A stretch of DNA of 64,000 bases. Origin: Streptomyces durmitorensis (GTDB lineage Bacteria; Actinomycetota; Actinomycetes; Streptomycetales; Streptomycetaceae). The DNA is taken from positions 4,774,001 to 4,838,000 of the forward strand of contig NZ_CP097289.1 in assembly GCF_023498005.1 (NCBI RefSeq). Reading direction: 5' to 3'. A model generated the notes under the pieces. It worked only from the letters and a program-made list of their open reading frames with translations, did no database searches and had not been told where the DNA came from. How positions within the stretch are numbered: the stretch's first letter is position 1; each line of letters begins with the position of its first letter. Positions 5,489-34,248 of this stretch are shown here, in pieces. Made by a program: the position numbers and the translations under genes.

Positions 5489-5871
5489 GAACCAGTCCTC
5501 GTCTGAGCCGTCGACGGCTCACCGCGGGGGTGCTCCGCGGGTTCGCCTTCGACTGAGTCGTCAGTGATCACCCGGGACGCTAAGGGGTGCGTTGATCACA
5601 CAAGACGGGCCACACCGCATAAGTGATGATCAGTCAGCTAATTAGATCGTTCGGGGGAGCACGGGAACGCCGGTGCCCGGCTCCACGCCCGTCACGACCT
5701 CGACCCGTATGGCACGCTCATGACAATCACGAGCTCACAGAGCGGGACACCGGCAAGTGAGATAGCTCACCGCAAGATCCTTACCCGCGTCGCCCTCCGG
5801 GCCACAGCCGCCCAGGAAACGAGAAACGGGCCTCCACCAGGACTTTCATCCTGGTGGAGGCCCGCTCCACA
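5489..5871 (-). promoter_or_regulatory. Upstream region of the surface-protein gene with three TGATCA palindromes
   Basis: This 383-base stretch has no credible gene. It holds the leader and presumed promoter of the surface-protein gene. TGATCA palindromes at 5565-5570, 5593-5598 and 5627-5632 are candidate operator elements, the first inside GTGATCAC. A hairpin with CCGCGG arms lies at 5522-5540 in the leader. The tRNA-Leu terminator occupies its right end. Regulation is inferred only from symmetry. Confidence 0.35.
5827..5864 (-). terminator. Terminator downstream of tRNA-Leu
   Basis: A perfect hairpin with CGGGCCTCCACCAGGA-type arms around a CTTTCA loop sits 7 bases beyond the 3' end of tRNA-Leu, on the side where its transcript would end. 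Confidence 0.8.
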
Positions 5872-5958
5872 TGGTGCGCGAGGGGGGAGTTGAACCCCCA
5901 CGCCCTTTCGGGCACTGGAACCTGAATCCAGCGCGTCTGCCTATTCCGCCACCCGCGC
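5872..5958 (-). tRNA. tRNA-Leu (anticodon CAG)
   Basis: The minus strand folds as an 87-nt class II tRNA. The 5' GCGCGGG pairs with 3' CTCGCGC (one G-U), followed by A and an encoded CCA. The anticodon stem CTGGA/TCCAG encloses TTCAGGT, giving anticodon CAG. A long variable arm (GCCCGAAAGGGC) and the T-loop GTTCAAC are visible. Confidence 0.95.
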
Positions 5959-6343
5959 ATGGGTGTTGTCTTGGGTCTCTCACTGCTTGGTGCGAGCGCC
6001 TTCCGACATCCAGAAGATTAGCACGGTGCCGGGGGTGGATTCACATCCGTATTCGGGGGCACCTGCCCTGATGATCCGAAGAGAACAGGGCCGGGCCGAC
6101 CGAGTTGAGCCGTACCCGGCGAAGCTCCGGGGCCGGGTGCGGGACACTGGTTTGAGGCCCCCTCTACGATCCCTGGTAGAGGAGCCTGAGAGGAGCCGGA
6201 AGGATCCCGGAACCCCGGTGCGGGCATGCCTTGTGAGAGGCGACACTCATCGACTGGGCGGACAGGGGGAACCAGCCGATTTCCCTGCGCGTGGATACGA
6301 TCAGTAAGCAGTACCAGGATGACTACGACGGAGGAGGTGCCCC
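5959..6343 (+). promoter_or_regulatory. Intergenic region: tRNA-Leu and fhaA promoters
   Basis: These 385 bases lie between the divergently oriented tRNA-Leu and fhaA genes. No convincing ORF is present; the short ones lack ribosome sites. It must hold both promoters, and I cannot assign clear -10/-35 boxes. A ribosome site GGAGGTG (6333-6339) lies 4-5 bases before the fhaA ATG. Confidence 0.4.
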
Positions 6344-7252
6344 ATGGGAGTCATGAAGAAGTTCGAGCAGCGACTCGAAGGTCTCGTCAACGGCACCTTC
6401 GCCAAGGTGTTCAAGTCCGAGGTCCAGCCCGTCGAGATCGCCGGCGCCCTGCAGCGCGAGTGCGACAACAACGCGACGATCTGGAACCGCGAGCGGACGG
6501 TCGTCCCCAATGACTTCATCGTGGAGCTCAGCGCGCCCGACTTCGAGCGCCTGAGCCCCTACTCGGGACAGCTCGGCGACGAGCTGTCCGGGATGGTGCG
6601 CGAGTACGCCAAGCAGCAGCGGTACAGCTTCATGGGCCCCATCAAGGTCCACCTGGAGAAAGCCGAGGACCTCGACACGGGTCTGTACCGAGTGCGCAGC
6701 CGCACGCTCGCGTCCAGCACCTCGCAGAGCCCCGAGCGCGCTCCTGCCGGACCCTCCGGGAACCCTTCCGCGGGCCCCACGAACGCCGGCCACAGCCCCG
6801 CCAGGCCGCCCGCGGGCGGCGCCGGCGGTGGCTACGGCTACCCGCAGCCCCCTCAGCCCTCCAGCGCTCCCCCCATGCCCGCCGCGCCGCCCCCAGGCGG
6901 TCGCCCCGGCGGGGCCGCTCCGGCACCGAGCCGCCCCCAGGGGCCCGGCGCCGGGCCTCTTCCGGGTGCGCAGGTACGGCGCTGGATCGAGATCAACGGC
7001 AATCGCCATCAGATCTCCCGCCCGACGCTGGTGCTGGGTCGCAGCACCGACGCCGATGTGCGGATCGACGACCCCGGCGTATCGCGCCGGCACTGTGAGA
7101 TCCGGACCGGAACGCCCTCGACGATCCAGGATCTCGGGTCTACCAACGGCATCGTGGTAGACGGGCAGCACACCACCCGCGCTACGCTCCGCGACGGCTC
7201 GCGGATCGTCGTGGGCCAAACCACCATCGTTTACCGGCAAGCCGAAGGGTGA
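6344..7252 (+). CDS. fhaA: FhaA: DUF3662 and FHA domain protein
   Basis: A 302-residue cytoplasmic scaffold. Residues 1-118 match the DUF3662 domain (MGVMKKFEQRLEGLVNGTFA start). A Pro/Gly/Ala-rich linker follows, then a C-terminal FHA domain (about 205-302) with the phosphothreonine-binding motifs LGRSTDADV, SRRHCEI and DLGSTNG. In actinobacteria FhaA recognises proteins phosphorylated by PknB, including components of peptidoglycan synthesis. It is the first gene of a six-gene operon that ends with pknB. GGAGGTG stands 4-5 bases upstream of the ATG, and fhaB begins 10 bases after the stop. Confidence 0.93.
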   Translation: MGVMKKFEQRLEGLVNGTFAKVFKSEVQPVEIAGALQRECDNNATIWNRERTVVPNDFIVELSAPDFERLSPYSGQLGDELSGMVREYAKQQRYSFMGPIKVHLEKAEDLDTGLYRVRSRTLASSTSQSPERAPAGPSGNPSAGPTNAGHSPARPPAGGAGGGYGYPQPPQPSSAPPMPAAPPPGGRPGGAAPAPSRPQGPGAGPLPGAQVRRWIEINGNRHQISRPTLVLGRSTDADVRIDDPGVSRRHCEIRTGTPSTIQDLGSTNGIVVDGQHTTRATLRDGSRIVVGQTTIVYRQAEG

Positions 7253-7262
7253 AGCGGGGGCA

Positions 7263-7787
7263 ATGTCAGAGCTGACCCTGACGGTCATGCGGCTGGGTTT
7301 CCTAGCCGTTCTGTGGCTGTTCGTGATCGTGGCCGTCCAGGTCATCCGTAGCGACCTGTTCGGAACACGCGTCACACAGCGCGGCTCACGCCGTGAGAAC
7401 GCACGTCCGCAGCAGGCCGCCCGCCAGCAACAGCAGGCGGCCGCACCACCTCCCCAGCGCCAGCAGCAGGGCGGCGGGCGGCAGCGCCGTGGCGCCCCCA
7501 GCAAGCTGGTCGTATCCGAAGGGATCCTCGCGGGCACGACGGTCGCCCTGCAGGGTCAGACGATCTCGCTGGGCCGAGCGCACGATTCGACGATCGTGCT
7601 GGACGACGACTACGCGTCCAGCAGGCATGCCAGGATCTACCCGGACCGTGACGGCCAGTGGATCGTCGAGGATCTCGGGTCCACCAACGGCACGTATCTC
7701 GACCGGACCCGACTCACCACCCCGACGCCCGTTCCGCTGGGCGCGCCGATCCGCATCGGCAAGACCGTCATCGAGCTGCGGAAGTAG
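7263..7787 (+). CDS. fhaB: FhaB: membrane-anchored FHA domain protein
   Basis: A 174-residue protein with one N-terminal membrane helix (about residues 10-28, LGFLAVLWLFVIVAVQVI), a Gln/Arg-rich linker and an FHA domain (about 80-174) showing LGRAHDSTI, SSRHARI and DLGSTNGTYLD. It is expected to bind phosphothreonine on PknB-pathway proteins at the cytoplasmic face of the membrane, close to the RodA/PbpA elongation machinery encoded next to it. It sits between fhaA and the phosphatase gene in the conserved actinobacterial order. GGGGG precedes the ATG. Confidence 0.93.
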   Translation: MSELTLTVMRLGFLAVLWLFVIVAVQVIRSDLFGTRVTQRGSRRENARPQQAARQQQQAAAPPPQRQQQGGGRQRRGAPSKLVVSEGILAGTTVALQGQTISLGRAHDSTIVLDDDYASSRHARIYPDRDGQWIVEDLGSTNGTYLDRTRLTTPTPVPLGAPIRIGKTVIELRK

Positions 7788-7882
7788 TACTACGTCATGA
7801 CAGAGCGCGAGCGGAGCGAGCGAGCCGAAACGGCTGTCCACACACTGGACGCCAGCGCGCTCCCGACCGGAGGGTGGGCACC

Positions 7883-9469
7883 GTGCGGATGTACCCGGAG
7901 CCGACGGGCGAGGTGCGCATGAGTCTGTCTTTGCGCTTCGCCGCCGGATCGCACAAAGGCATGATCCGGGAGGGGAACGAGGACTCCGGCTATGCCGGTC
8001 CGCGTCTCCTCGCGATCGCCGACGGCATGGGGGGCCAGGCCGCGGGTGAGGTGGCGAGCTCCGAGGTGATCTCGACGCTCGTCACCCTCGACGACGACGT
8101 ACCGGGATCGGACATCCTCACGTCGCTCGGCACCGCCGTGCAGCGCGCCAACGACCAACTGCGCCTGATGGTCGAGGAGGACCCCCAGCTCGAGGGCATG
8201 GGGACGACGCTGACCGCCCTGCTGTGGACGGGCCAGCGCCTTGGCCTCGTACACGTCGGCGACTCACGCGCCTACCTCCTTCGGGACGGCGTCCTCACGC
8301 AGATCACCCAGGACCACACCTGGGTGCAGCGCCTGGTCGACGAGGGCCGGATCACCGAGGAGGAAGCCACCACCCACCCGCAGCGCTCCTTGCTGATGCG
8401 CGCGCTGGGCAGTGGTGAGCACGTCGAACCGGACCTCTCCATCCGTGAGGTCCGCGCCGGCGACCGCTATCTGATCTGCTCGGACGGCCTGTCCGGCGTC
8501 GTCTCCCATCAGACGATGGAAGACACCCTCGCGAGCTACCAAGGCCCCCAGGAGACCGTGCAGGAGCTCATCCAGCTCGCGCTGCGCGGCGGCGGCCCCG
8601 ACAACATCACGGTGATCGTCGCCGACGTCCTGGACATCGACAGCGGCGACACCCTGGCCGGCCAGCTCTCCGACACCCCCGTGGTCGTCGGCGCGGTCGC
8701 CGAGAACCAGCTCCAGGCGCAGGACGACGACGGCGCCATGCAGACCCCCGCGGGCCGTGCGTCGGGCCTCGGCCGTCCCGTGCCCCCGCAGCCCTCCGGA
8801 GGCGGCTTCGGGCCGCCCGGAAGCGGTGACACGGCGAGCTACGCCCCCGAGGGGAGCTTCGGCGCGTACAGCGACGAGGACTTCGTGAAGCCCCGCGGCG
8901 GCCGCAAGTGGCTCAAGAGATCGCTCTACACCGTGCTCGCCCTGGCGGTCATCGGCGGCGGCCTGTACGGCGGCTACCGCTGGACCCAGACCCAGTACTA
9001 CGTCGGCACGAACGACGAGAACGTCGCCCTGTACCGCGGCATCGACCAGGACCTGGCGTGGGTCAGCCTGTCGAAGGTCGAGGAGAACTACCCCAAGATC
9101 GAACTCAAGTACCTCCCGCCGTACCAGCGCAAGCAGGTCGAGGGGACCATCCCCGAGGGCAATCTCGACGACGCCAGGAGCAAGATCGAGGAGCTTGGCC
9201 TGCAGGCATCCGCCTGCGAGAAGGACGCCGAGCGCCGCGAGGCGGAGCGCGAGAACGCCAAGCCCGGTGAGGGCGAGGCGGGCGGCACGACCGGTCTGGC
9301 CGCCAAGGCCCCCACGGACGATCCGACCGACCCGGCGGAAACGAACGACAAGAACGACAAGAACAGCACCACCGACAAGAACAAGTCCAAGACCGCACCG
9401 ACTCCCACACCCGGCCCCAGCCTCTCCGAGGAAGAGGAGAAGCTGGTCCCGCTGTGCGGTAAGCAGTAA
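7883..9469 (+). CDS. pstP: PstP: membrane PP2C-type Ser/Thr protein phosphatase
   Basis: About 528 residues. The N-terminal PP2C domain carries the metal-binding motifs REGNEDSGY, IADGMGG, VGDSRAYL and SDGLSG, then GGPDNITVIV. A charged/Gly linker leads to one membrane helix (about 347-367) and an extracellular tail rich in Thr/Asp/Lys. It should dephosphorylate PknB and its substrates such as the FHA proteins and cell-wall enzymes. I chose GTG at 7883 because GGAGGG lies 8 bases before it. ATG at 7889, or ATG at 7919 (MSLSLRFAAGSHKG), remain possible. The ORF stays open further upstream, but those residues are not PP2C-like. Confidence 0.93.
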   Translation: MRMYPEPTGEVRMSLSLRFAAGSHKGMIREGNEDSGYAGPRLLAIADGMGGQAAGEVASSEVISTLVTLDDDVPGSDILTSLGTAVQRANDQLRLMVEEDPQLEGMGTTLTALLWTGQRLGLVHVGDSRAYLLRDGVLTQITQDHTWVQRLVDEGRITEEEATTHPQRSLLMRALGSGEHVEPDLSIREVRAGDRYLICSDGLSGVVSHQTMEDTLASYQGPQETVQELIQLALRGGGPDNITVIVADVLDIDSGDTLAGQLSDTPVVVGAVAENQLQAQDDDGAMQTPAGRASGLGRPVPPQPSGGGFGPPGSGDTASYAPEGSFGAYSDEDFVKPRGGRKWLKRSLYTVLALAVIGGGLYGGYRWTQTQYYVGTNDENVALYRGIDQDLAWVSLSKVEENYPKIELKYLPPYQRKQVEGTIPEGNLDDARSKIEELGLQASACEKDAERREAERENAKPGEGEAGGTTGLAAKAPTDDPTDPAETNDKNDKNSTTDKNKSKTAPTPTPGPSLSEEEEKLVPLCGKQ

Positions 9470-22558: not shown

Positions 22559-23188
22559 TCACTCACCGTCCAGGCGGGCCAACGCATCATCCAACCCGTT
22601 GGCCCAGCCAGGTGGCGGCATGTTGTCGAAGTCGTCCCGGTGCTCCAAGACGAGGTGCGCCAGCCTGTGGAAGTCCGCGACCGAGCGTGCGTACAGGTAC
22701 CAACCACCGCCGTACTGCCGGATGCCGCAGCTCGCGGATTCAGCGAGGCGCGCGATGAGCCGTGCTCTCCCCGCGTCGGGGACGAGCCCCACACGGGGGT
22801 ACTTCGAGTGGTGTTCACCAGGCACGCCGCCGCGACACGAGTAGAACGTGGCCGTGCCTGCAGCAGAGAGTGCCAAGACGAGGCCGGCAGCCCCGGGATC
22901 GTTCCAACGAAACTCTTGCATGAGCTCGGCGTGCCCCACGTCGTCGTGCTCACAGATCGCGTTCATCACCTCCGCGATCCCGTCGGACGCAGTGGACGCG
23001 CCAGAACGCGCCAGGATCTCCGCTTCTTCGACGAGGCAGGCTTCGACCTCGCTCCAGGCAGGAAGCCCCATGCACTCGTACCCCTCGTGGTTGGTGAAAC
23101 CGACCGCAACATCCTCAGCCGTCAAGTCGTCCGTCAGTTCTCCGAGTTCGTAGACGCGACGTACTTCCACCTCGAAGTCTGGAATCAT
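22559..23188 (-). CDS. Unrecognised island protein
   Basis: A 209-residue acidic soluble protein starting MIPDFEVEVRRVYELGELTD. I do not recognise the family. Visible features: no signal peptide or membrane helix; a central Cys/His-containing stretch (FYSCRGGVPGEHH) after a hydrophobic LVLALSAAGTATF; and a Trp/Tyr-rich segment near the C-terminus (RQYGGGWYLYARS). The ATG at 23188 has only a weak GAG ribosome site. The frame is open to 23371, but the extra residues look non-coding. It is divergent from the ATPase gene with a 336-base gap, so it may be accessory cargo or a regulator of the system. Confidence 0.6.
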   Translation of the reverse strand: MIPDFEVEVRRVYELGELTDDLTAEDVAVGFTNHEGYECMGLPAWSEVEACLVEEAEILARSGASTASDGIAEVMNAICEHDDVGHAELMQEFRWNDPGAAGLVLALSAAGTATFYSCRGGVPGEHHSKYPRVGLVPDAGRARLIARLAESASCGIRQYGGGWYLYARSVADFHRLAHLVLEHRDDFDNMPPPGWANGLDDALARLDGE

Positions 23189-23524
23189 GCGCTCATTCTG
23201 TCGGAGGTCATCGGCTGCTGGGACGCAGATGACGCACTCCACGACCCGCTCACTTCGCGGGGCAGTCTTCACCCGCCGCCGGGACCTCGGCGTCGGGCAC
23301 CCGTGCCAAGCTGACAGGAGGAAAGTCCAGAAAGTCAGGGATCTTGCATCTCCCTCCACTACGATCGCCACTGGGTAGGGGGCTACGCACTAACGATCTA
23401 CATGACCAGCAGGCGAAGATCCCTCTGTACCCGGTGTGTCCGCCTGCTCGGTGCCACATGGTTCTCCGAAGCAGCCGTACACCGAACTCCATTGTCCGGG
23501 GCGGGAAGCAGGCTGAGACCAGAG
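23189..23524. promoter_or_regulatory. Divergent promoter region of the defence operon
   Basis: These 336 bases lie between the unknown minus-strand gene and the ATPase gene. No gene is supported. The ATPase frame is open back to 23402 but lacks a convincing ribosome site or domain similarity there. The promoter for the four-gene operon must be here; I cannot assign boxes confidently. Confidence 0.35.
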
Positions 23525-24994
23525 ATGACCTACGACATCGCGCCCCCGGCGCCCGTCGGCATGGTGGCCTCCTTGAGCTCCCTCGGATACTCGCTCCCGG
23601 ACGCTTTGGCGGACTTGGTCGACAACAGCGTCTCCGCAGAGGCTCGGACTATCGAGATCGACTTCACCTGGGCCGGGCGAAAGTCCTGGATGGCGATCAC
23701 AGACGATGGCTGCGGCATGTCGAGAGAAGAGCTCATCACCGCCATGACGGTCGCCGCCCGCGGGCCCGCAACGAACAGATCGTCCACCGATCTCGGGCGC
23801 TATGGGGTCGGCCTGAAGTCTGCCTCCTTCTCGCAGTGCCGTCTGCTCACGGTGAGCACCGCCACCACCGGTGACTGGATCACCCGCACCTGGGATCTCG
23901 ACGTCGTCGAGAAGACCGGAGAGTGGAGACTCCTGCACACCCCGACTGTCGAGACCTCGGAGATCCTGGACAGGATCACCGAAAGCCGGAGTAGCGGCAC
24001 CGTGGTCCTGTGGCAACGACTCTCGGGCTACCAGGCTGTTTCCGAGAAAGATAAGAAGACCCAGCAGCAGTTCTACGACGAGGCCGAGAAGGTCCGCACA
24101 CATCTCGGTCTCGTGTTCGCGCGCTTCCTCATCGGGTCGTCCCCGCTGACTATGCGGGTCGCAGGTGTCGGAGTCTCGCCCTGGGACCCGTTCCTCACAT
24201 CCAACCCGTCGCTACGCCGACTGCCGCCGGAGCCCCTGCCCCTCGACGGCCACACGGTTCTGGTGGAACCCTTCGTTCTCCCTGGCTCCCAGCGGTTGAC
24301 CCCCGATGAGTACGACAACGCTGGCGGCCCCCAGGGTTGGCTGCGGCACCAAGGCTTCTACGTGTACCGGAGGGACCGGCTAATCCTCGCTGGCAGCTGG
24401 CTCGGTCTGCGGAGTCTCCGTCGCGAGGAACGGTTCAATCTGGCCCGCGTCTCCGTGGACATCCCTGCCGAGATGGACGCTGAGTGGCGCGTGGACGTGC
24501 GGAAGGCCGCGGTCGTCCCGCCTGTGTCCCTGCGACGGCACCTCACCCGGATCGCTCAGATGGTGCGTCGGGAGGCCGCCGAGACAGTGCGGCATCGGGG
24601 TCAGATCGCAGCGCGACAACACAGCGGGCCGCTCTCGTTTCCCTGGACCGTCCGGCGTGCTAACGGCAAGGTCAGCTGCAAGATCAACAAGCGCCATCCG
24701 CTCGTACAAGCGGTCCTCAAGGACACCGACTCCGACCCGGCTCGCGTCCGAGCTCTCCTCCGTCTTCTAGAGGAGACGGTGCCGGTGCCCGCGCTGCGAG
24801 TCCTGCACGAGACGGATACGCCGGACGACCCGGAGCCGTTCGGCGGCCCTGGCCCGGCGGATGCGCAGGCGATCGAGGTCGCCCGGCAGATGTACGAGGC
24901 TCTGTTGGCACAGGGAAGATCCGCCGTGGAGGCGAGAGCCCTGATCAGGACGACACAGCCCTTCGACCAGCTTGACGGGTTCTGGAGCAGCTGA
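23525..24994 (+). CDS. MORC-like GHKL ATPase of a predicted restriction system
   Basis: A 489-residue protein. The N-terminal GHKL/HSP90-type ATPase fold shows the Mg/ATP motif DLVDNS (Asn34), the G1 box DDGCGM (from Asp60) and the G2 box GRYGVGLKSAS (from about 92). An S5-like domain follows, with a conserved HQGFYVYRRDRLI segment, as in MutL/MORC relatives. Bacterial MORC ATPases are predicted to clamp or remodel DNA in restriction-modification operons. It heads an operon with the Z1 helicase 69 bases downstream, the PD-(D/E)XK nuclease and the AIPR protein. Start choice is the first ATG before the domain (MTYDIAPP). Confidence 0.88.
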   Translation: MTYDIAPPAPVGMVASLSSLGYSLPDALADLVDNSVSAEARTIEIDFTWAGRKSWMAITDDGCGMSREELITAMTVAARGPATNRSSTDLGRYGVGLKSASFSQCRLLTVSTATTGDWITRTWDLDVVEKTGEWRLLHTPTVETSEILDRITESRSSGTVVLWQRLSGYQAVSEKDKKTQQQFYDEAEKVRTHLGLVFARFLIGSSPLTMRVAGVGVSPWDPFLTSNPSLRRLPPEPLPLDGHTVLVEPFVLPGSQRLTPDEYDNAGGPQGWLRHQGFYVYRRDRLILAGSWLGLRSLRREERFNLARVSVDIPAEMDAEWRVDVRKAAVVPPVSLRRHLTRIAQMVRREAAETVRHRGQIAARQHSGPLSFPWTVRRANGKVSCKINKRHPLVQAVLKDTDSDPARVRALLRLLEETVPVPALRVLHETDTPDDPEPFGGPGPADAQAIEVARQMYEALLAQGRSAVEARALIRTTQPFDQLDGFWSS

Positions 24995-25063: not shown

Positions 25064-27859
25064 GTGAGTACCGTCGATGACGAAGCGTTCGGCCATGCAG
25101 TGACGGCAGCACTCATGTTCCTGCCTGGTGACCGTCAGGCCACCCCGGAGGAAGTCGAAACCGCCACGAACATGGCCATGAGCGTCGTCAGCCTGCAGGG
25201 GATGACGGTCGACCGCGCACGGTTGGCGAAGGAACTCGAGGCAAAGACGAACGTCTACCAAGAGGACTCGGCAGCCCTGCACAACTCCGAGGGTCACGTC
25301 CCCTGGCTGGCGGATGCCAAGAACGACCGCGACTGGGCCTTCTGGGATCGGTACAACCGGTATCTGAAGACCGTCGTCGGTATGCCTCCTCAGGTGGTGC
25401 GGTCGCTGGACCGGAGCACCGAGGAGGTACTCGGCGAACTCGAGGACCCCCGTCGCCCTGGACGATGGAGGCGGACGGGCCTGGTGATCGGCCAGGTCCA
25501 GTCGGGCAAGACCGGACAGTACATCGGGCTCGCCACGAAGGCCGCGGACGCCGGCTACAGACTGATCGTCGTCTTCGCGGGCATCCACAACGACCTCCGC
25601 AGCCAGACCCAGCTCCGCATCGACGAAGGACTCCTCGGGTTCGACACGCAGTACCAGCTCCGCTCCGACCAGGAAGGCGCCAACCGGAAGATCGGCGTGG
25701 GGGCCATGTCCCACGTGGAGCAGTTGCCAGTGGCATCACTGACCAACAGCGCAGAGAAGGGCGACTTCGACAGGCGGACCGCTTCGAAGGCCAACCTCCC
25801 CATCGCCAGCTTCCCCGTCGTGCTCGTCGTGAAGAAGCACCGCCGGATCATCGACTACCTCCGGACCTGGATCACGGAAGTCCACGGCGAGGAGGATCCT
25901 CAGTCGGGCCGAAAGATCGTCCGGGAAATCCCTCTGTTCGTGATCGACGACGAGGCCGACAACGCGTCCATCAACACCGCGGACCCCGACTCCGAACCTA
26001 CGAAGATCAACGAGGCCATCCGGAAGCTGGTAAACAGCTTCGACAAGGCCTCGTACGTCGGATATACGGCCACGCCGTTCGCGAACATCTATGTCGACTC
26101 GGATGCCGACCACGACATCCTCGGCGAGGACCTGTTCCCCCACAGCTTCATCCGCGCCCTGCGTGCTCCTTCCAACTACCTCGGCCCGGAGCGCCTCTTC
26201 GGCCTACGGGTGCACGACGAGGAGGAGGACGACATCGACCCGCTGCCGCTGGTCGAGCACGTGACGGACACCGCGTCGTGGGTTCCCGACAAACACAAGT
26301 CGAGTTGGGTCCCGAGTGGAGACCTTCCCCCCTCACTCCGGCAGGCGATCCACTCGTTCGTCCTCACCTGCGCTGCGCGCCGTGCCCGCAGGCAGGTGAA
26401 CAAGCACAACTCCATGCTGGTTCATGTCACGCGGTTCACCGCGGTCCAAGGGCACGTACGCGACCAGGTGGACGACTACGTACGGTTCCTCTCGGAGAGT
26501 CTCCGTGACCGGTACGGCAGCGCCTCCGCAAGCTGTCTCGCCGAGCTCCGCACACTCTGGGAGGAGAACTTCGTCCCGACCACCGCCTACTTCCCCACCG
26601 ACGAAGCCGAACGACTCACCTGGGACACAGTCGCCGAGGAGATCCTCCCGGCGCTCCTCAAGTTCCGCGTCAAGGCGATCAACGGCGCTGCGAAGGACGT
26701 TCTCGACTACTACGAGAACCGTCACAAGGGCCTGTCGGTCATCGCCATCGGTGGTGAAAAGCTCTCGCGCGGGTTGACCCTCGAAGGGCTCTCGGTCAGC
26801 TACTACCTGCGTGCTTCGAAGACGTACGACACCCTGCTCCAGATGGGCCGATGGTTCGGATATCGGCCGGGCTACGAGGACCTCTGCCGCCTCTACACGA
26901 CTCCGACCCTCGAGTCCGCCTACGCGGAAATCACCGCGGCGACCGACGAACTGCGCCGGGACGTCGAGGAGATGTCCGTGCTCGGACTGACGCCCCGGGA
27001 GTTCGGCCTCAAGGTCCGGACCTCCTCCCTCGGGCTTGCGATCACCGCCGCCAACAAGATGAGGCAGGGGACGCGCGTACGCCTCAGCTACTCGGGCGAG
27101 CTTCCCGAGACCACAATTTTCAACCTCGACGACGGAACACCGCAGAAGAACCTGGACGCCCTCCGGTCCTTCGCGGAGACTTTGACTGGCCTCTCGGCAC
27201 CCGATGTCGATTCGAACAGCGGCAGCCTCACGTGGAAGCACGTCCCGCCGGAGATCATCGCCGCCAGCTTCTTCGACACCTATCAGACGGCAAAAGAAGC
27301 ACACCGTGTGCGGCCGAAGTTCATCGCTGACTACGTCCGGAAGTGCGCTGCGCACGGTGAACTGACCGACTGGACAGTGCGAGTTGTCGGCGTGAACTCA
27401 CGACCGCTCGCCGGCTTCGTCGACCTCGCTGGTTACTCCGTGGCACTGGTCACCCGTCAGGAGTCCGGGCGCAAGACTTCCGGCCGCTACACGATCAAGC
27501 GCGTTCTGAGTCCCAGGGACGAGAGCATCGATCTCGACAAGGGCCAAAGTGCACTGGCTCTCGCGGCTACGAAGAAGGCAGCGGAGGGCTCGAAGAAGCG
27601 CGACGGTTCACCCCGCAACCCCACGACTGCGACCGGTACGCCGCTCCGCTTCCAGCGGCGCCCTGACCAGCCCCTGCTGCTCATCTACCCCCTCGCACCG
27701 CCGAAGAGCACCGACGCCACCGACCCAGCCCCGCTCGTCGGATTCGCGGTGAGCTTCCCGTTCTCGGAGCGCCAGATCAAGACCGAGTACGTCGTCAACG
27801 ACGTCTGGTGGAAGCAGGGGGCCGACTTGGACATCGAAGAGGACGAGGACGACGAGTGA
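25064..27859 (+). CDS. Z1 domain SF2-type helicase/ATPase
   Basis: A 931-residue protein. It has Walker A GQVQSGKT (Lys149), a Walker B/DEAD-like box IDDEAD (Asp295, Glu297), a motif III-like GYTATPFANI, and a C-terminal helicase half with GGEKLSRGLTL and LLQMGRWFGYR, the arginine-finger region. This arrangement is the Z1 family of superfamily II ATPases found in predicted MORC-type restriction-modification operons, where it probably translocates or opens DNA for the nuclease. The very acidic C-terminus (DIEEDEDDE) abuts the next gene: stop and start overlap as GTGA at 27856-27859. Confidence 0.92.
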   Translation: MSTVDDEAFGHAVTAALMFLPGDRQATPEEVETATNMAMSVVSLQGMTVDRARLAKELEAKTNVYQEDSAALHNSEGHVPWLADAKNDRDWAFWDRYNRYLKTVVGMPPQVVRSLDRSTEEVLGELEDPRRPGRWRRTGLVIGQVQSGKTGQYIGLATKAADAGYRLIVVFAGIHNDLRSQTQLRIDEGLLGFDTQYQLRSDQEGANRKIGVGAMSHVEQLPVASLTNSAEKGDFDRRTASKANLPIASFPVVLVVKKHRRIIDYLRTWITEVHGEEDPQSGRKIVREIPLFVIDDEADNASINTADPDSEPTKINEAIRKLVNSFDKASYVGYTATPFANIYVDSDADHDILGEDLFPHSFIRALRAPSNYLGPERLFGLRVHDEEEDDIDPLPLVEHVTDTASWVPDKHKSSWVPSGDLPPSLRQAIHSFVLTCAARRARRQVNKHNSMLVHVTRFTAVQGHVRDQVDDYVRFLSESLRDRYGSASASCLAELRTLWEENFVPTTAYFPTDEAERLTWDTVAEEILPALLKFRVKAINGAAKDVLDYYENRHKGLSVIAIGGEKLSRGLTLEGLSVSYYLRASKTYDTLLQMGRWFGYRPGYEDLCRLYTTPTLESAYAEITAATDELRRDVEEMSVLGLTPREFGLKVRTSSLGLAITAANKMRQGTRVRLSYSGELPETTIFNLDDGTPQKNLDALRSFAETLTGLSAPDVDSNSGSLTWKHVPPEIIAASFFDTYQTAKEAHRVRPKFIADYVRKCAAHGELTDWTVRVVGVNSRPLAGFVDLAGYSVALVTRQESGRKTSGRYTIKRVLSPRDESIDLDKGQSALALAATKKAAEGSKKRDGSPRNPTTATGTPLRFQRRPDQPLLLIYPLAPPKSTDATDPAPLVGFAVSFPFSERQIKTEYVVNDVWWKQGADLDIEEDEDDE

Positions 27860-28863
27860 TCGACGAGAGCATCTGGCGCGAGCTGGAGACCCCCCAGCCC
27901 GGAGCAGGACGTTCCGTCCGACGCCTGTTCCCCGAGTCGCCTCACGACATCCATCTGTCGGTGACCCACCCGGGGCACCGCCGGATGCTGTTGCTGCGCG
28001 CCGATGCCAGGGCCGCTGACCGTGTCCGGCGCCTCCTCGTCGATCTGCCCCAGGCCAGTGGCCTGAGCCTGTCACTCAGTTCGATCTCTCCTCGGGAGTT
28101 CGAACTCCAGGTGTCGCTGACAGCCGACGACCTCCGCGAGGTCTTCTCTCCGTTGGTTGAGGACATCGCGGAGGTCGTGCGGGATACGGACTCGGGCGAG
28201 ACGGCGCTCGAGGCGGCGGTGCGGCGATTCCTCCACTGGCAGCAGCTCATGCGGACCGTGAGCCGGGACGGGCTGGGGAGCGAGGGCCGACGGGGACTGT
28301 TCGGCGAGCTGTACTTCCTGCGCGAGTACGTGCTGCCCGCGATACCCCACACCGCCGCGGTGTCCGCATGGACAGGGCCCGAGGGAACGGCCCAGGACTT
28401 CCAGCTCACTCACGCGGGAGTCGAGATCAAGACGACGACCGTGAAGAGCCCCAGCACCGTACGCATCTCGAACGAACGGCAGCTCGACGACACCGGAGTC
28501 GAGGCCCTGCTGTTGGCCCAGATCTCGGTGGACGAGAGGCGAGGTGGTTCCGGCGAGAGCCTGAACACGATGGTCGACAGCGTCAGGAGCGAGATCGACA
28601 ACCCACTCGCACGGGCACGGCTGGACGCGCAACTGATCCGAGCAGGGTACTTCCCTAATCAGCGAGACTTCTACGACGAGCCTCGGTTCACTCTCCGGCG
28701 CGCGGACCTGTGGAAGGTGGCCGACGGTTTCCCCCGCATCGTGGAGTCGGATCTCGCTCAGGGAGTCGGAAACTGCATCTACGACATCAGCGTCTCAGCG
28801 CTTGAGCAGCACCGTGTATCGACCGCCGAGGTCGCCGAACTGATCAGAGGTACCGATGGCTGA
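27856..28863 (+). CDS. PD-(D/E)XK nuclease (DUF4420-like) of the defence system
   Basis: A 335-residue protein. The restriction-endonuclease-fold core is visible: Glu151 in GLFGELYFL, Asp181 in AQDFQLTH, then Glu190-x-Lys192 in GVEIKTT, spaced as in PD-(D/E)XK enzymes. It should be the DNA-cleaving subunit guided by the MORC ATPase and Z1 helicase. The GTG start overlaps the Z1 stop by four bases and its own stop overlaps the AIPR start by eight, so the three proteins are translationally coupled and probably made in fixed ratios. Confidence 0.88.
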   Translation: MIDESIWRELETPQPGAGRSVRRLFPESPHDIHLSVTHPGHRRMLLLRADARAADRVRRLLVDLPQASGLSLSLSSISPREFELQVSLTADDLREVFSPLVEDIAEVVRDTDSGETALEAAVRRFLHWQQLMRTVSRDGLGSEGRRGLFGELYFLREYVLPAIPHTAAVSAWTGPEGTAQDFQLTHAGVEIKTTTVKSPSTVRISNERQLDDTGVEALLLAQISVDERRGGSGESLNTMVDSVRSEIDNPLARARLDAQLIRAGYFPNQRDFYDEPRFTLRRADLWKVADGFPRIVESDLAQGVGNCIYDISVSALEQHRVSTAEVAELIRGTDG

Positions 28864-30865
28864 GCTGGCCCTTCACGACTACGTCCGCACGCTCATGAAC
28901 GACATACAGTCGCTAGCGGAGAACGAGGGCGCCTCCATCCCGAAGACGTTCACTCGACGTGTGTTGGAGCAGCTCGAGGAGGCGGGCGTGGTCTCCAACT
29001 CCCACGTCGCTTACCACCAAGAACACGGTGTTGTCGTGTATGGCTTCGGCGTGAGCGAAGATCGCTCGACTCTTGACCTGTACACCACCGAGTACGACCT
29101 CGCCCAGGGACAGCCCGGAGCTGACAAGCTCACCAAGGGCGACACCGCCAAGGCGTACCGTCGGCTACTCGCTTTCCTCCGTAAGTGCGGCACCATCCGC
29201 AACAATCACCCCGAGACGACAGAGGTACATGAGCTCTGCGAGGGCGTCGAGAAAGCCCTCGCCGACGCCGTCAAGATCCGGCTGTTCCTTTTCAGTAACC
29301 AGGTGAGCACAGCAGGCGCTCTCCCGGAACCGACGGACTTGAACGGCGTACCCGTTATCCACGAGCTCTGGGATCTCACACGGCTCCATCGCCACGAGAC
29401 CTCGGGATCCCTCAGTGAACCCATCGTGGTGGATTTCGATCCCCCGCTTCCCTGCCTGTCGGCAGAGAGTACTGAGCCCGACCACTCGGTGACTCTCGCC
29501 GTACTGCCGGGAGCACTGCTTGCCCAGCTTTACGACGACCATCGAGCGCGGCTACTAGAACTTAACGTCCGGGCCTTCCTCCAGATCCGCACCGGCGTCA
29601 ACCGCAAAATCCGCGAGACGTTGTTGAAGCGGCCGGAGCGCTTCCTGGCGTACAACAACGGGATCACCGCCACGGCATCAGAGGCGGAATTCGTGCTGGA
29701 TGCAAATGGCAACTGCGTCGCTATCCGACAGCTGACCGGGCTCCAGATCGTGAATGGCGGTCAGACGACCGCCACGCTGCACCACGTCATGAAGCGGGAC
29801 AAGAAGGACCTCTCTGAGGTCAGAGTGCAGATGAAGCTGTCCCTGGTCGCTCCTGAACATCTCGAGGAGATCGTCCCCCGGATCTCGGAGTACTCCAACA
29901 CGCAGAACAAGGTGACGCTAGTCGACTTCAGCTCCAACCATCGGTTCCACGTGGACTTCGAGCGAGTCAGCCGGGCCCTGTGGGCACCAGCCACAGACGA
30001 GTCCGGCCAGGAGACTCGTTGGTTCTACGAACGGGCTCGGGGCCAGTACGCGCAAGAGGAGGCAAAGCACGTCACCGTACCGGCCAGACGGAAGTTCCGG
30101 GCTCTTCATCCCACAAGGCAACGGTTCAGCAAGGCTGACCTCGCCAAGTACGTGAACTCATGGAACGAGCTTCCGCACCTTGTGAGCCGTGGCGCCCAGA
30201 AGAACTTCAACGAGTTCATGGAACGCACGAAGAGAGAGCCGCCCGTAGTCGACATCTCCTTCTGCAAGCGGGTGATCGCCATGGGGCTGCTTTTCAAGGC
30301 TGTGGACGCGGTGGCGAAGGAGCACGAAGCCGGCAGTCACAAGGCTCTCGTCACCGCCTACACCATGGCCCGGTTGTGCTCGGCGACGGAAAAGCGGATC
30401 GACCTCGACCGAATCTGGCGTGAGCAGGGTGTCTCCCCAGCGCTCGTGGCCGCAGTTCACGACCTGTGTCCCCTTGTGATGGAGAGAGTGATCGCGCCGG
30501 GCAAGCACGTGACGGAGTGGGCGAAGAGCAGCACCTGCTGGGAGGACGTCTCCCGCCTCAAGTGGGACATCCCCGAGGAACTCAGCACCGAACTACTGGC
30601 GCAGCCAGTCGAGTTCACGGAAGACACGTCAGAGGCCGAAGAACAGCGGTTGGCCGACGTCCGAGCCATCGGTGCCGAGGAGTGGGAAGCGCTCGGCGAG
30701 TGGGCACGTCAGACCCGAAACCTCGAGCCCTCCGAACGGCAGCTCGCGACCGTGATCGCCACCAGGCTACGGACCGGTGGCGACATCACGGCCACCCAAG
30801 CCGCTCAAGTTCTGTCAGTGCACGAGACTGCTATCGGAATCGGGTTCAGTCCTGCCGTGATCTGA
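28856..30865 (+). CDS. AIPR family (abortive phage resistance) protein
   Basis: A 669-residue soluble protein. The AIPR domain is recognisable by RPERFLAYNNGITATASEA (about residues 260-280), the ITGLQIVNGGQTTATLHH-like block (about 293-305), and RISEYSNTQNKVTLVDFSSNH just after. AIPR proteins were first linked to abortive infection in lactococcal plasmids and recur in restriction-like operons; their biochemical activity is not settled. It is the last gene of the operon. ATG 28856 lies inside the nuclease gene's end. The C-terminal ~150 residues are charged helices without a recognised motif. Confidence 0.9.
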   Translation: MAELALHDYVRTLMNDIQSLAENEGASIPKTFTRRVLEQLEEAGVVSNSHVAYHQEHGVVVYGFGVSEDRSTLDLYTTEYDLAQGQPGADKLTKGDTAKAYRRLLAFLRKCGTIRNNHPETTEVHELCEGVEKALADAVKIRLFLFSNQVSTAGALPEPTDLNGVPVIHELWDLTRLHRHETSGSLSEPIVVDFDPPLPCLSAESTEPDHSVTLAVLPGALLAQLYDDHRARLLELNVRAFLQIRTGVNRKIRETLLKRPERFLAYNNGITATASEAEFVLDANGNCVAIRQLTGLQIVNGGQTTATLHHVMKRDKKDLSEVRVQMKLSLVAPEHLEEIVPRISEYSNTQNKVTLVDFSSNHRFHVDFERVSRALWAPATDESGQETRWFYERARGQYAQEEAKHVTVPARRKFRALHPTRQRFSKADLAKYVNSWNELPHLVSRGAQKNFNEFMERTKREPPVVDISFCKRVIAMGLLFKAVDAVAKEHEAGSHKALVTAYTMARLCSATEKRIDLDRIWREQGVSPALVAAVHDLCPLVMERVIAPGKHVTEWAKSSTCWEDVSRLKWDIPEELSTELLAQPVEFTEDTSEAEEQRLADVRAIGAEEWEALGEWARQTRNLEPSERQLATVIATRLRTGGDITATQAAQVLSVHETAIGIGFSPAVI

Positions 30866-31542
30866 GAAGCAGCGGTCAGGGTTGCTGAGTGTCGGCCTTG
30901 AGTGACGGCATCACAGCGCTCCGGCACCTGACCGCGTCCTCAGCCCGCTGGGGGATAATCCGATCGCCTCCGTCACTGAACGCAAGGATTCCGGCCCGGC
31001 GGGCAGGCTCGCCTCTGCGAGGAAGGTTCACGGCAGCTCAACCCTGCCATGGGTGTCGAGGCGCACAGCACGGCTGATACTCGGATCACGAGAGGGGGGA
31101 TGGCTCTCCTGCCCTACTCCTCCACGAAGGATGGTCACGGGCAACGGCCGGGAGAACACGCAAAGTTCCAGTTGGGCAGGAATGGGTTAGTGCCGACAGC
31201 TTGGCCGACGGGTGCGTAGCACCAGACCCGAGTATCGCTCCTTCAGGCAGTGCATCGGCAAGGGCTGCTCTTCCGGATCCACACAAGGTTCCCCTCGCTG
31301 CACCACCAACTTCGTACCGCCACGCCCCCTGGGGCGCGGGTCTTCGTCGGCGGATGCTTCTAATATCGCTACCGCGAAAACGAGACGAACCGGGTCCCGG
31401 ACCCGCGCGACACCGACGCAGTGACGGCAACGGGGCGGTCGATTGTCCGAGCCTGGTAGTGCGACGTGCGCTCAGCTGGGATATGACCCTGCGCTTCGGA
31501 TCACCGCGGAGTGCGCGCGCCGGTTCTCCTGATCTCTCGCGG
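30866..31542. other. Gene-free interval between AIPR and methyltransferase genes
   Basis: These 677 bases separate two convergent genes. Several short ORFs exist on both strands, but none has a good ribosome site, codon bias or a recognisable motif. I specifically looked for a Vsr-type nuclease and found none. It may contain a decayed gene. Confidence 0.5.
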
Positions 31543-33471
31543 TCAGTGCGCCGTGCTCACACCAGCTTCACCTGCGTGGTGAAAGAGGTCTTCCCCTTCC
31601 GGCTTCCCTGCACAGTGCTTCCGCAGGGGGCACTGTGCGCAGTAGGGGTTTCTCGCGGTGCACAGTGTGCTCCCGATGACACGCAGCGCGGCCATCCGTA
31701 GGGGGCCGTCACTTGCACCCACCACTCGGACGAGATTGACCCTTCCATCGCTCAGTCTGTTAGTGCGATCGGCGTCACTGTTGTTGAGTCTCGCAGCGAC
31801 TCGGATTGCTCCCTGCGTGACCAGAAGAAGATCTTGGTCCCCAACGAGAAGGCTGTACAAACGCTCCTCTGCGGGGCGCAGCCCGATACGCTCCGGAACC
31901 GCGTGGCTTTTCGACGGCTGCCACGCGTACCGGTCGCCGACGAGGGGAAGCAGGCGTGCGATCTTCGCAGCCACCCCAGGGGTGGGGGCTTTCTTAATCA
32001 GTGCCCCGTACAACCGCTGCGTGACCGCCTTGCGTCCCCGTGTGAGTTCCATAAGCTCTCGAAGCTGCATGGGCTTCATCTTTGAGCCCGAAAGGACGGC
32101 CATGACGGCGGCCTGCGTCGACAGCATCTCGTCACCTGGGAACTGGTACCACTCCTCGCCCTTTCGCGCCTTGTCTGCCCACGCCGTCAGGTCGTCTCGG
32201 ACGACGCGCCAGTGCGGCTGAAGCCCGCCTTGAGGCGCCCGCACACCAGCGACAGGCAGAACCGCCATGGCCGCTTCCTTGCCCAGGAGTGGAGGAACGG
32301 CGTTGCCAATCTGCCGGAAGGCGTCGCTCCGCGTTCCGGCGAAGCGGAATCGATCCGGAAACGTCTGAACCCGAGCTGCCTCCCGCACGGTGAGTGTCCG
32401 AGGCTCCCGGGGGTGGATGTACCAGTAGCCGTCCTTGGCGATATGCGCCGTGATCGAACGACTACGGTCCTGCCAGTCCAACCTCTTGTACTTATCCGTG
32501 AAGTTGTCCGCTCTGTAGCGTCGCAGCTTCTTGGGGATATCCGAGTACAGCGTGCTCGAGTCCATGTGGTAGGAGAAGATCTCCCAATCGTCCGGCCGAA
32601 CCCGGCGCGTCATGTGGTCATATACCACCTTAGGGTCAGCACCCCTACGCATCTGAGCGGCGAACTCGGACAACTCCTGCCCATCCTGGTAAGGAAGCGT
32701 GCGTGCGCCGACCCTCTCCCGCGCAATGACGTCGAGTCCTGGAAGGTCCCCGATAGCATCACGGAGCGAGACGTGCTTGTCCCTCTTCGGACTCCAGTCG
32801 AACCTCTCGACATCGTTCCGGGCGAGAAGGATGAGCCGCTTCCTGTGCTGGGGCACCCCGTAGTGCCACGCATCGACCAGCCGCACCTGCGTGGCGTATC
32901 CGAGGGTCTCCAGCTTCTCCTCGATGATGCGGACAACTGCGAAATCGTCCCCCAACCCCATGTCCGGGACATTCTCCATCAGCACTGCGCGCGGACGTAC
33001 GCGGGTGACCACGTCCAGGTACGCCTGCCACAGCTCCTTTCGGCGATCACGTGGGTCCCGCTTGTGGTTGAGCACGAGATCCCGGATCTTGCTGCGGCCA
33101 GCTCGGCTGAAAGGCTGACAAGGTGGGCCGCCAGCGATCAGATCAATTTTGGCATTCGTCAGTAGACCGACAAGTCGATCACGTTCGCCCGGATCCCCAA
33201 GATCCATACGGAGGCTGAGGCCGGGAAAGTTACCGGCATGCGTCTCAAGTGCCCGTTCATCGAAGTCCACAGCGGTGGCTACGGTCCAGCCAGCCTGCTC
33301 GACCCCAGAGCTCAGGCCACCTGCACCAGAGAACAGGTCCACTGCGAGTCGGTCAGACGCATGTCTCTCCAGCCAAGCAGGAAACTCCTCCTCCGTGCAG
33401 CTTTCCGGATGGCGAGTCAGCTGGAGGTAGTCCGACCTCTCCAGGGGAACCTCGTACTTCCCCTTCTCCAC
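31543..33471 (-). CDS. C5-cytosine DNA methyltransferase fused to an EndoIII-like Fe-S module
   Basis: A 642-residue protein. Residues about 40-400 form a C5 methyltransferase: motif I DLFSGAGGLSSG (Asp45), motif IV GGPPCQPFSRAG with catalytic Cys118, motif VI MENVPDMG (Glu166), motif VIII QHRKRLILLAR, and motif X QIGNAVPPLLGKEAA. The C-terminal ~200 residues end in LRVIGSTLCTARNPYCAQC, giving Cys604-x6-Cys611-x2-Cys614-x5-Cys620, the endonuclease III/MutY [4Fe-4S] spacing. A preceding segment LLLVTQGAIRVAARLN aligns with the VDTHVFRVANRL block of those glycosylases but lacks the catalytic Asp. GTG 33471 follows GGAGGG; ATG 33492 is an alternative. It presumably protects host DNA from the system. 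Confidence 0.9.
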   Translation of the reverse strand: MEKGKYEVPLERSDYLQLTRHPESCTEEEFPAWLERHASDRLAVDLFSGAGGLSSGVEQAGWTVATAVDFDERALETHAGNFPGLSLRMDLGDPGERDRLVGLLTNAKIDLIAGGPPCQPFSRAGRSKIRDLVLNHKRDPRDRRKELWQAYLDVVTRVRPRAVLMENVPDMGLGDDFAVVRIIEEKLETLGYATQVRLVDAWHYGVPQHRKRLILLARNDVERFDWSPKRDKHVSLRDAIGDLPGLDVIARERVGARTLPYQDGQELSEFAAQMRRGADPKVVYDHMTRRVRPDDWEIFSYHMDSSTLYSDIPKKLRRYRADNFTDKYKRLDWQDRSRSITAHIAKDGYWYIHPREPRTLTVREAARVQTFPDRFRFAGTRSDAFRQIGNAVPPLLGKEAAMAVLPVAGVRAPQGGLQPHWRVVRDDLTAWADKARKGEEWYQFPGDEMLSTQAAVMAVLSGSKMKPMQLRELMELTRGRKAVTQRLYGALIKKAPTPGVAAKIARLLPLVGDRYAWQPSKSHAVPERIGLRPAEERLYSLLVGDQDLLLVTQGAIRVAARLNNSDADRTNRLSDGRVNLVRVVGASDGPLRMAALRVIGSTLCTARNPYCAQCPLRKHCAGKPEGEDLFHHAGEAGVSTAH

Positions 33472-34174: not shown

Positions 34175-34196
34175 GTGGAGCCTAGGAGATTCGAAC
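34175..34196. repeat. attR: 3' end of intact tRNA-Ala
   Basis: This is the right copy of the 22-bp repeat shared with 22309-22330. It overlaps the last 21 bases of tRNA-Ala, so insertion restored the tRNA. Confidence 0.85.
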
Positions 34197-34248
34197 TCCT
34201 GACATCTGCCTTGCAAAGGCAGCGCTCTACCAACTGAGCTAAGGCCCC
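34176..34248 (-). tRNA. tRNA-Ala (anticodon TGC), island integration target
   Basis: A 73-nt cloverleaf on the minus strand. The 5' GGGGCCT pairs with 3' AGGCTCC (one G-U) plus discriminator A; CCA is not encoded. The anticodon stem TGCCT/AGGCA encloses TTTGCAA, giving TGC. The D-arm AGCTCAGTTGGTAGAGC is typical of tRNA-Ala. The gene remains complete because the island's att site replaces its 3' end. Confidence 0.95.

Follow-up and report, generated by a model that had tools for sequence, protein, structure and literature searches.

The methylase gene at positions 31543 to 33471 of a 64,000-nucleotide stretch of Streptomyces durmitorensis DNA (NZ_CP097289.1, positions 4,774,001 to 4,838,000; hereafter the window) encodes a C5-cytosine DNA methyltransferase fused to a C-terminal tail that most likely descends from a MutY/Mig-type base-excision glycosylase. 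Sequence comparisons and structure models establish the architecture and fold of this tail, the conservation of its cysteines, the loss of its catalytic aspartate, the selection acting on it and its genomic company. The tail has apparently been retained by evolution for something other than repair. We tentatively favor, at slightly under even confidence, the reading that the enzyme is the self-marking C5 methyltransferase of an MZA-like defense locus and that the retired glycosylase serves it as a non-cutting module for binding and positioning DNA. The gene and its parts are as follows:

31543..33471, minus strand: 642-residue C5-cytosine DNA methyltransferase with a MutY-class HhH-GPD/[4Fe-4S] tail (P0001)
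32269..33342, minus strand: DNA_methylase domain, residues 44-401 (PF00145 match)
31546..32259, minus strand: C-terminal tail, residues 405-642, with a helical MutY-like fold (model and structure comparison)
31612..31662, minus strand: predicted [4Fe-4S] loop, Cys604 to Cys620 (cysteine pattern and sub-threshold PF10576 match)

The gene is a minus-strand open reading frame of 642 residues with a GTG start codon; the corresponding frame of the plus strand contains several stops. An earlier note on this DNA had given the right coordinates, and we correct its orientation to the minus strand. Residues 44-401 match PF00145 with an E-value of 1.2e-55 (189.6 bits against a cut-off of 22), and the PCQ, ENV, QHR and GNAVPP motifs are invariant or nearly so among 61 aligned sequences. 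The family profile and catalytic motifs together identify a C5-cytosine DNA methyltransferase. For wider comparison we aligned the window gene with 88 distinct relatives (89 rows), after removing eight duplicates, among which was the window's own gene, and one further copy of that gene. Catalytic Cys118 is kept in all 89 rows. Of 197 loci confirmed in genome scans we used the best 80; a second scan found matches in 11 of 150 genomes, the source genome counted. The full-length model is confident (predicted local distance difference test, pLDDT, 90.1; predicted template modeling score, pTM, 0.88), as expected if methylase and tail form one unit.

Modeling of the tail with AlphaFold2 from 75 sequences gave a pLDDT of 90.2 and a pTM of 0.85, with low confidence for the final 11 residues. 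Chains of MutY, Mig and Nth top both comparisons of this model with the PDB, and the whole-domain structural match, together with a four-cysteine loop predicted to hold a cluster, places the tail in the HhH-GPD superfamily. The fusion proposed by the earlier note, and the glycosylase fold that it expected of a structure prediction, were both borne out. Its assignment of the tail to the endonuclease III class was not: profile comparison gave a probability of 96.9 against actinobacterial MutY and 0.3 against Nth, favoring a MutY over an EndoIII origin. A sister group of tails aligns over the full domain with Mig (Mig.Mth, 1kea; E 2e-13), a thymine-DNA glycosylase, and matches MutY with an E-value of 1.7e-9. 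The tree does not show a single origin of all tails: the Synechococcus tail (L105) and that of L169 fall on its MutY side, with long-branch warnings. When the tail profile was compared with the PDB by sequence only, a TAL effector ranked first (E 1.8e-6, no single stretch passing), which we judged a repeat artefact; behind it stood EndoIII (2.6e-5) and MutY (3.3e-4). The MutY equivalog TIGR01084 scored 22.8 bits and did not reach its cut-off of 286.5. All 25 of 25 actinobacterial genomes matched this model and none reached the cut-off, which makes the threshold uninformative in this group.

The protein contains six cysteines: catalytic Cys118, Cys25 and the four of the predicted cluster loop. 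The latter occur as Cys604-x6-Cys611-x2-Cys614-x5-Cys620, at the residues given in the earlier note, and the loop (residues 604-620) scores 18.5 bits against PF10576 (EndIII_4Fe-2S), below the cut-off of 20.5. The co-conservation anticipated in that note holds, with all four cysteines kept together in 85 of the 89 rows and all four missing from the other four (L085-L088), a pattern that exceeds chance. The x6-x2-x5 spacing is exact in 79 rows, nearly so in five and unmatched in five. Intact four-cysteine tails occur in several actinobacterial classes and in one cyanobacterium, the latter on a Synechococcus plasmid. The tail probably binds a [4Fe-4S] cluster, as judged by this pattern. The retained ligands would also suit a cluster that senses redox state or iron and thereby controls methylation or defense under oxidative or phage stress, and the part of PMC9266487 that we consulted describes how the redox-inactive view of such clusters has been revised since the mid-2000s. 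We consider this improbable: the sequences do not separate sensing from a structural role, and L085-L088 have lost the cluster.

Catalytic residues of the glycosylase fold have been lost. The window protein has Val551-Thr-Gln-Gly554, as the earlier note described, with Thr552 opposite the catalytic aspartate of MutY. Across the 89 rows this column contains glycine (42), serine (22), threonine (12), asparagine (9), valine (2), alanine (1) and glutamine (1), and never aspartate; the following column has one aspartate. By eye, seven further tails, one from the Synechococcus plasmid, also lack aspartate there. The tails hence lack the catalytic aspartate of active HhH-GPD glycosylases (MutY, Mig, EndoIII). 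No active ancestor was found among the fused proteins, in either the aligned rows or the further tails. At the EndoIII Schiff-base column, lysine is missing in 88 of 89 rows. A glutamate is still present in the sister group, and in the Synechococcus tail, within the helix that bears it in MutY and Mig. In the window's branch, helix 451-461 has no conserved acidic residue, its correspondence to the MutY glutamate being approximate, and the catalytic glutamate has apparently been lost there as well. A glycosylase still active through other residues would fit the consistent occupation of the aspartate column by Gly, Ser, Thr or Asn (85 of 89 rows), a pattern unlike random decay. Given the missing aspartate and lysine and the altered helix, this explanation seems very improbable. 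MutY with Asp138 changed to Asn is reportedly inactive.

The tail is under purifying selection. Among 133 non-independent pairs of 80-97% identity, the median ratio of nonsynonymous to synonymous substitution rates (dN/dS) was 0.160 for the tail versus 0.086 for the methylase. A functionless vestige, which the tail's lower conservation and the higher ratios of the two usable cluster-less pairs (0.36 and 0.32) might suggest, is scarcely credible against this median, the joint retention of four cysteines and their presence in a cyanobacterial tail. A signature, N-R-L-S-D-G-R, is also strongly conserved (N571 in 85 and R577 in 83 of 89 rows) despite the loss of the aspartate.

These properties are consistent with a positioning module. 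A MutY/Mig-type ancestor would have lost its catalytic aspartate and retained the fold and the four cluster cysteines; the [4Fe-4S] loop and helical core would then hold duplex DNA next to the site being modified by the methylase domain, with a mainly structural role for the cluster. Such a tail would be mostly positively charged and non-cutting. The tail has a mean net charge of +6.3 (range -7 to 15), compared with a mean of -1.1 in the methylase part. The first cluster loop contains one or more lysines or arginines in 77 of 85 cluster-bearing rows, compared with 22 of 23 MutY proteins (the 23rd is unmatched by the pattern). We infer DNA binding by the tail and a role for it on the methylation side of the system rather than the restriction side.

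Several observations weigh against a cluster-bearing DNA-binding tail of glycosylase origin. Pfam recognized the cluster loop alone, in 23 of 75 tails at E ≤0.1, and found no HhH-GPD family in any of the 75 or in five sister tails. Mean pairwise identity is 40.5% for the tail versus 68.1% for the methylase, and the net charge of some tails is negative. Judged from where the modeled helices end, the PGVG hairpin loop of MutY is IGLR in the window's branch, and the second glycine is lysine or arginine in 71 of 89 rows, so that the DNA-gripping hairpin of this branch looks degenerate. Rows L085-L088 lack every cluster cysteine yet retain the methylase domain, and the cluster is thus dispensable there. 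Three of these four are in the tree, where they group together on a long branch with full support and are counted as one loss. ParaMORC partners do not cleanly account for the loss: four of five such loci are cluster-less and one (L030) is cluster-bearing.

The methylase gene lies beside an operon that is predicted to encode an anti-phage defense system:

23402..24994, plus strand: GHKL (MutL/MORC-like) ATPase, MzaB-like
25064..27859, plus strand: gene between the MzaB-like and MzaD-like genes
27808..28863, plus strand: PD-(D/E)XK (DUF4420) protein, MzaD-like
28856..30865, plus strand: AIPR-family protein, MzaE-like

Homologs of MzaB, MzaC, MzaD and MzaE occur in the order of the MZA system (MzaABCDE), all below their NCBIfam equivalog cut-offs (407.5 of 850, 735.2 of 1500, 143.3 of 420 and 346.5 of 1050 bits, respectively). 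The sigma factor MzaA was not seen among the open reading frames scanned beside the operon; no window-wide search for it was made. Tail presence in a locus was scored by hidden Markov model match, which counts in the four cluster-less rows. The tailed methylase lies near MzaB-E homologs in 58 of the 80 loci, near DrmA/DrmB homologs of DISARM without the full set in 12, and near a paraMORC-kinase homolog in five. As the same tailed methylase accompanies three kinds of partner, the tail appears tied to the methylase and not to one effector.

The tail could instead be mainly a docking platform that links self-marking with restriction by recruiting the MzaB-like GHKL ATPase, the AIPR protein or Vsr. 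Of the 80 loci, 71 have an MzaB-like gene and 69 an MzaE-like gene. In a sample chosen by MzaC alone (20 of 23 places outside the window, omitting G171, G424 and G469 near contig ends), which shares several genomes with the 80 loci, all nine loci with all four Mza genes carry a tailed methylase. A reference listed in PMC2292703 has a title that names an interaction of Escherichia coli MutL with Vsr, and the conserved N-R-L-S-D-G-R signature beside a degenerate hairpin leaves room for such docking. However, the partners vary among MZA-like, DISARM and paraMORC-kinase loci, which favors DNA positioning over docking. Further, in the plasmid sample (16 examined of 29 plasmid records with an MzaC match), all eight loci outside Actinobacteria with all four genes have a tail-less methylase, as does L107; docking by a tail is therefore unneeded for such systems. 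We regard docking as the main alternative to DNA positioning, possible though less probable. The tail is not a feature of every actinobacterial MZA-like locus: L107, an actinobacterial plasmid locus with four genes by annotation, and L159, with three genes by BLAST, both have a tail-less methylase. In five loci (L046, L061, L081, L082 and L084) the tailed methylase is present twice, either on opposite strands or as a tandem pair. L047, a hybrid locus that also contains DrmA/DrmB and an AIPR gene, encodes a 1057-residue protein (4981-8154) in which MzaA-like sigma-70 regions are joined to an MzaB-like part.

In 59 of the 80 loci, the tailed methylase has a Vsr gene no more than 1.5 kb away. Among the other 21, L063 and L070 have Vsr elsewhere in the locus, and the flank is short in L049, L063 and L086. 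No Vsr gene was detected in the window with the Vsr profile, and one Vsr match was found in the source genome, at another locus beside other methylases. We did find a remnant in the interval that separates the AIPR gene from the methylase gene:

31203..31474, plus strand: decayed Vsr remnant in two frames with internal stops

It occupies the position where most relatives carry Vsr, although some queries align from farther upstream. Vsr proteins of five relatives matched it with best scores of 36.2-39.3 bits, compared with at most 25.4 bits in 300 first-order intergenic shuffles, which indicates that Vsr was once present in the window and has since decayed. The suggestion in the earlier note that the tail replaces Vsr is rejected, since most relatives carry both and the window itself retains a broken copy.

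This association also bears on whether the tail reads mismatches or lesions, binding G:T pairs (from deaminated 5-methylcytosine) or oxidized pairs without excision and passing them to Vsr or shielding them from the restriction arm. Mig, a T:G glycosylase, is the best match of the sister tails, which also retain a glutamate in the corresponding helix, Vsr is a frequent neighbor, and a MutY with Asp changed to Asn has, by its title, been solved on DNA (4ypr). Yet the base pocket is changed at the aspartate and, in the window's branch, apparently at the glutamate and hairpin too, and the tail-less methylases of alphaproteobacterial loci are also accompanied by Vsr. Vsr itself recognizes G:T. Such a reader is unlikely. 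A broader version, in which the pseudo-glycosylase reads DNA state for a portable MZA-like/DISARM/paraMORC methylase, binding mismatched or unusual DNA and deciding self-marking, is doubtful.

Compared with the N-terminal domain of MutY/MUTYH, the window tail lacks the aspartate, has apparently lost the glutamate, has an altered hairpin and is fused behind a methyltransferase. From endonuclease III it differs in profile and in both catalytic residues. Mig, which lies beside a C5 methylase, is a separate active enzyme with the aspartate; in the window the domain is fused and lacks it. Among defense systems, the methylase domain matches the DISARM class 2 DrmMII model (E 8.8e-79); the best match stops at residue 406, before the tail. 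Restriction-modification operons linked to paraMORC/MORC likewise combine a C5 methylase and a GHKL ATPase, often with Vsr, in the parts of PMC2292703 and PMC8011034 consulted. The main text of the former contains "DNA glycosylase", "HhH" and "endonuclease III" zero times, and that of the latter "glycosylase" zero times. The section of PMC9523054 on a putative type II system does not mention a methylase tail. Nor is the fusion mentioned in the parts consulted of these three papers or of PMC9266487, PMC10273834 and PMC13118837, and no paper listed in searches of an open-access library, which leave subscription papers and REBASE outside, describes it by title or abstract. If correct, our reading would show clearly how bacterial immunity can take over a base-excision repair enzyme as a non-catalytic component, and it predicts an iron-sulfur cluster in a DNA methyltransferase. 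Because the tailed methylase recurs beside MZA-like, DISARM and paraMORC genes, it looks like a marking module that can be exchanged among systems.

Searches of mobile elements gave few relatives. The sister-tail alignment had no match in viral_contigs, a viral fold library gave none at E 0.001, and phages yielded one 33% methylase match restricted to residues 43-405. Plasmids yielded one relative at E 1e-60, that of Synechococcus, whose translation revealed its four-cysteine tail. Just past the methylase gene, a tRNA-Ala gene (34175-34248, minus strand) is a possible edge of the defense island. Upstream of the MzaB-like gene, positions 22559-23371 (minus strand) encode a 270-residue protein that matches nothing in Pfam, PADLOC or NCBIfam; relatives occur in seven of the 80 loci, and the protein may be an accessory that only some versions of the defense system include.
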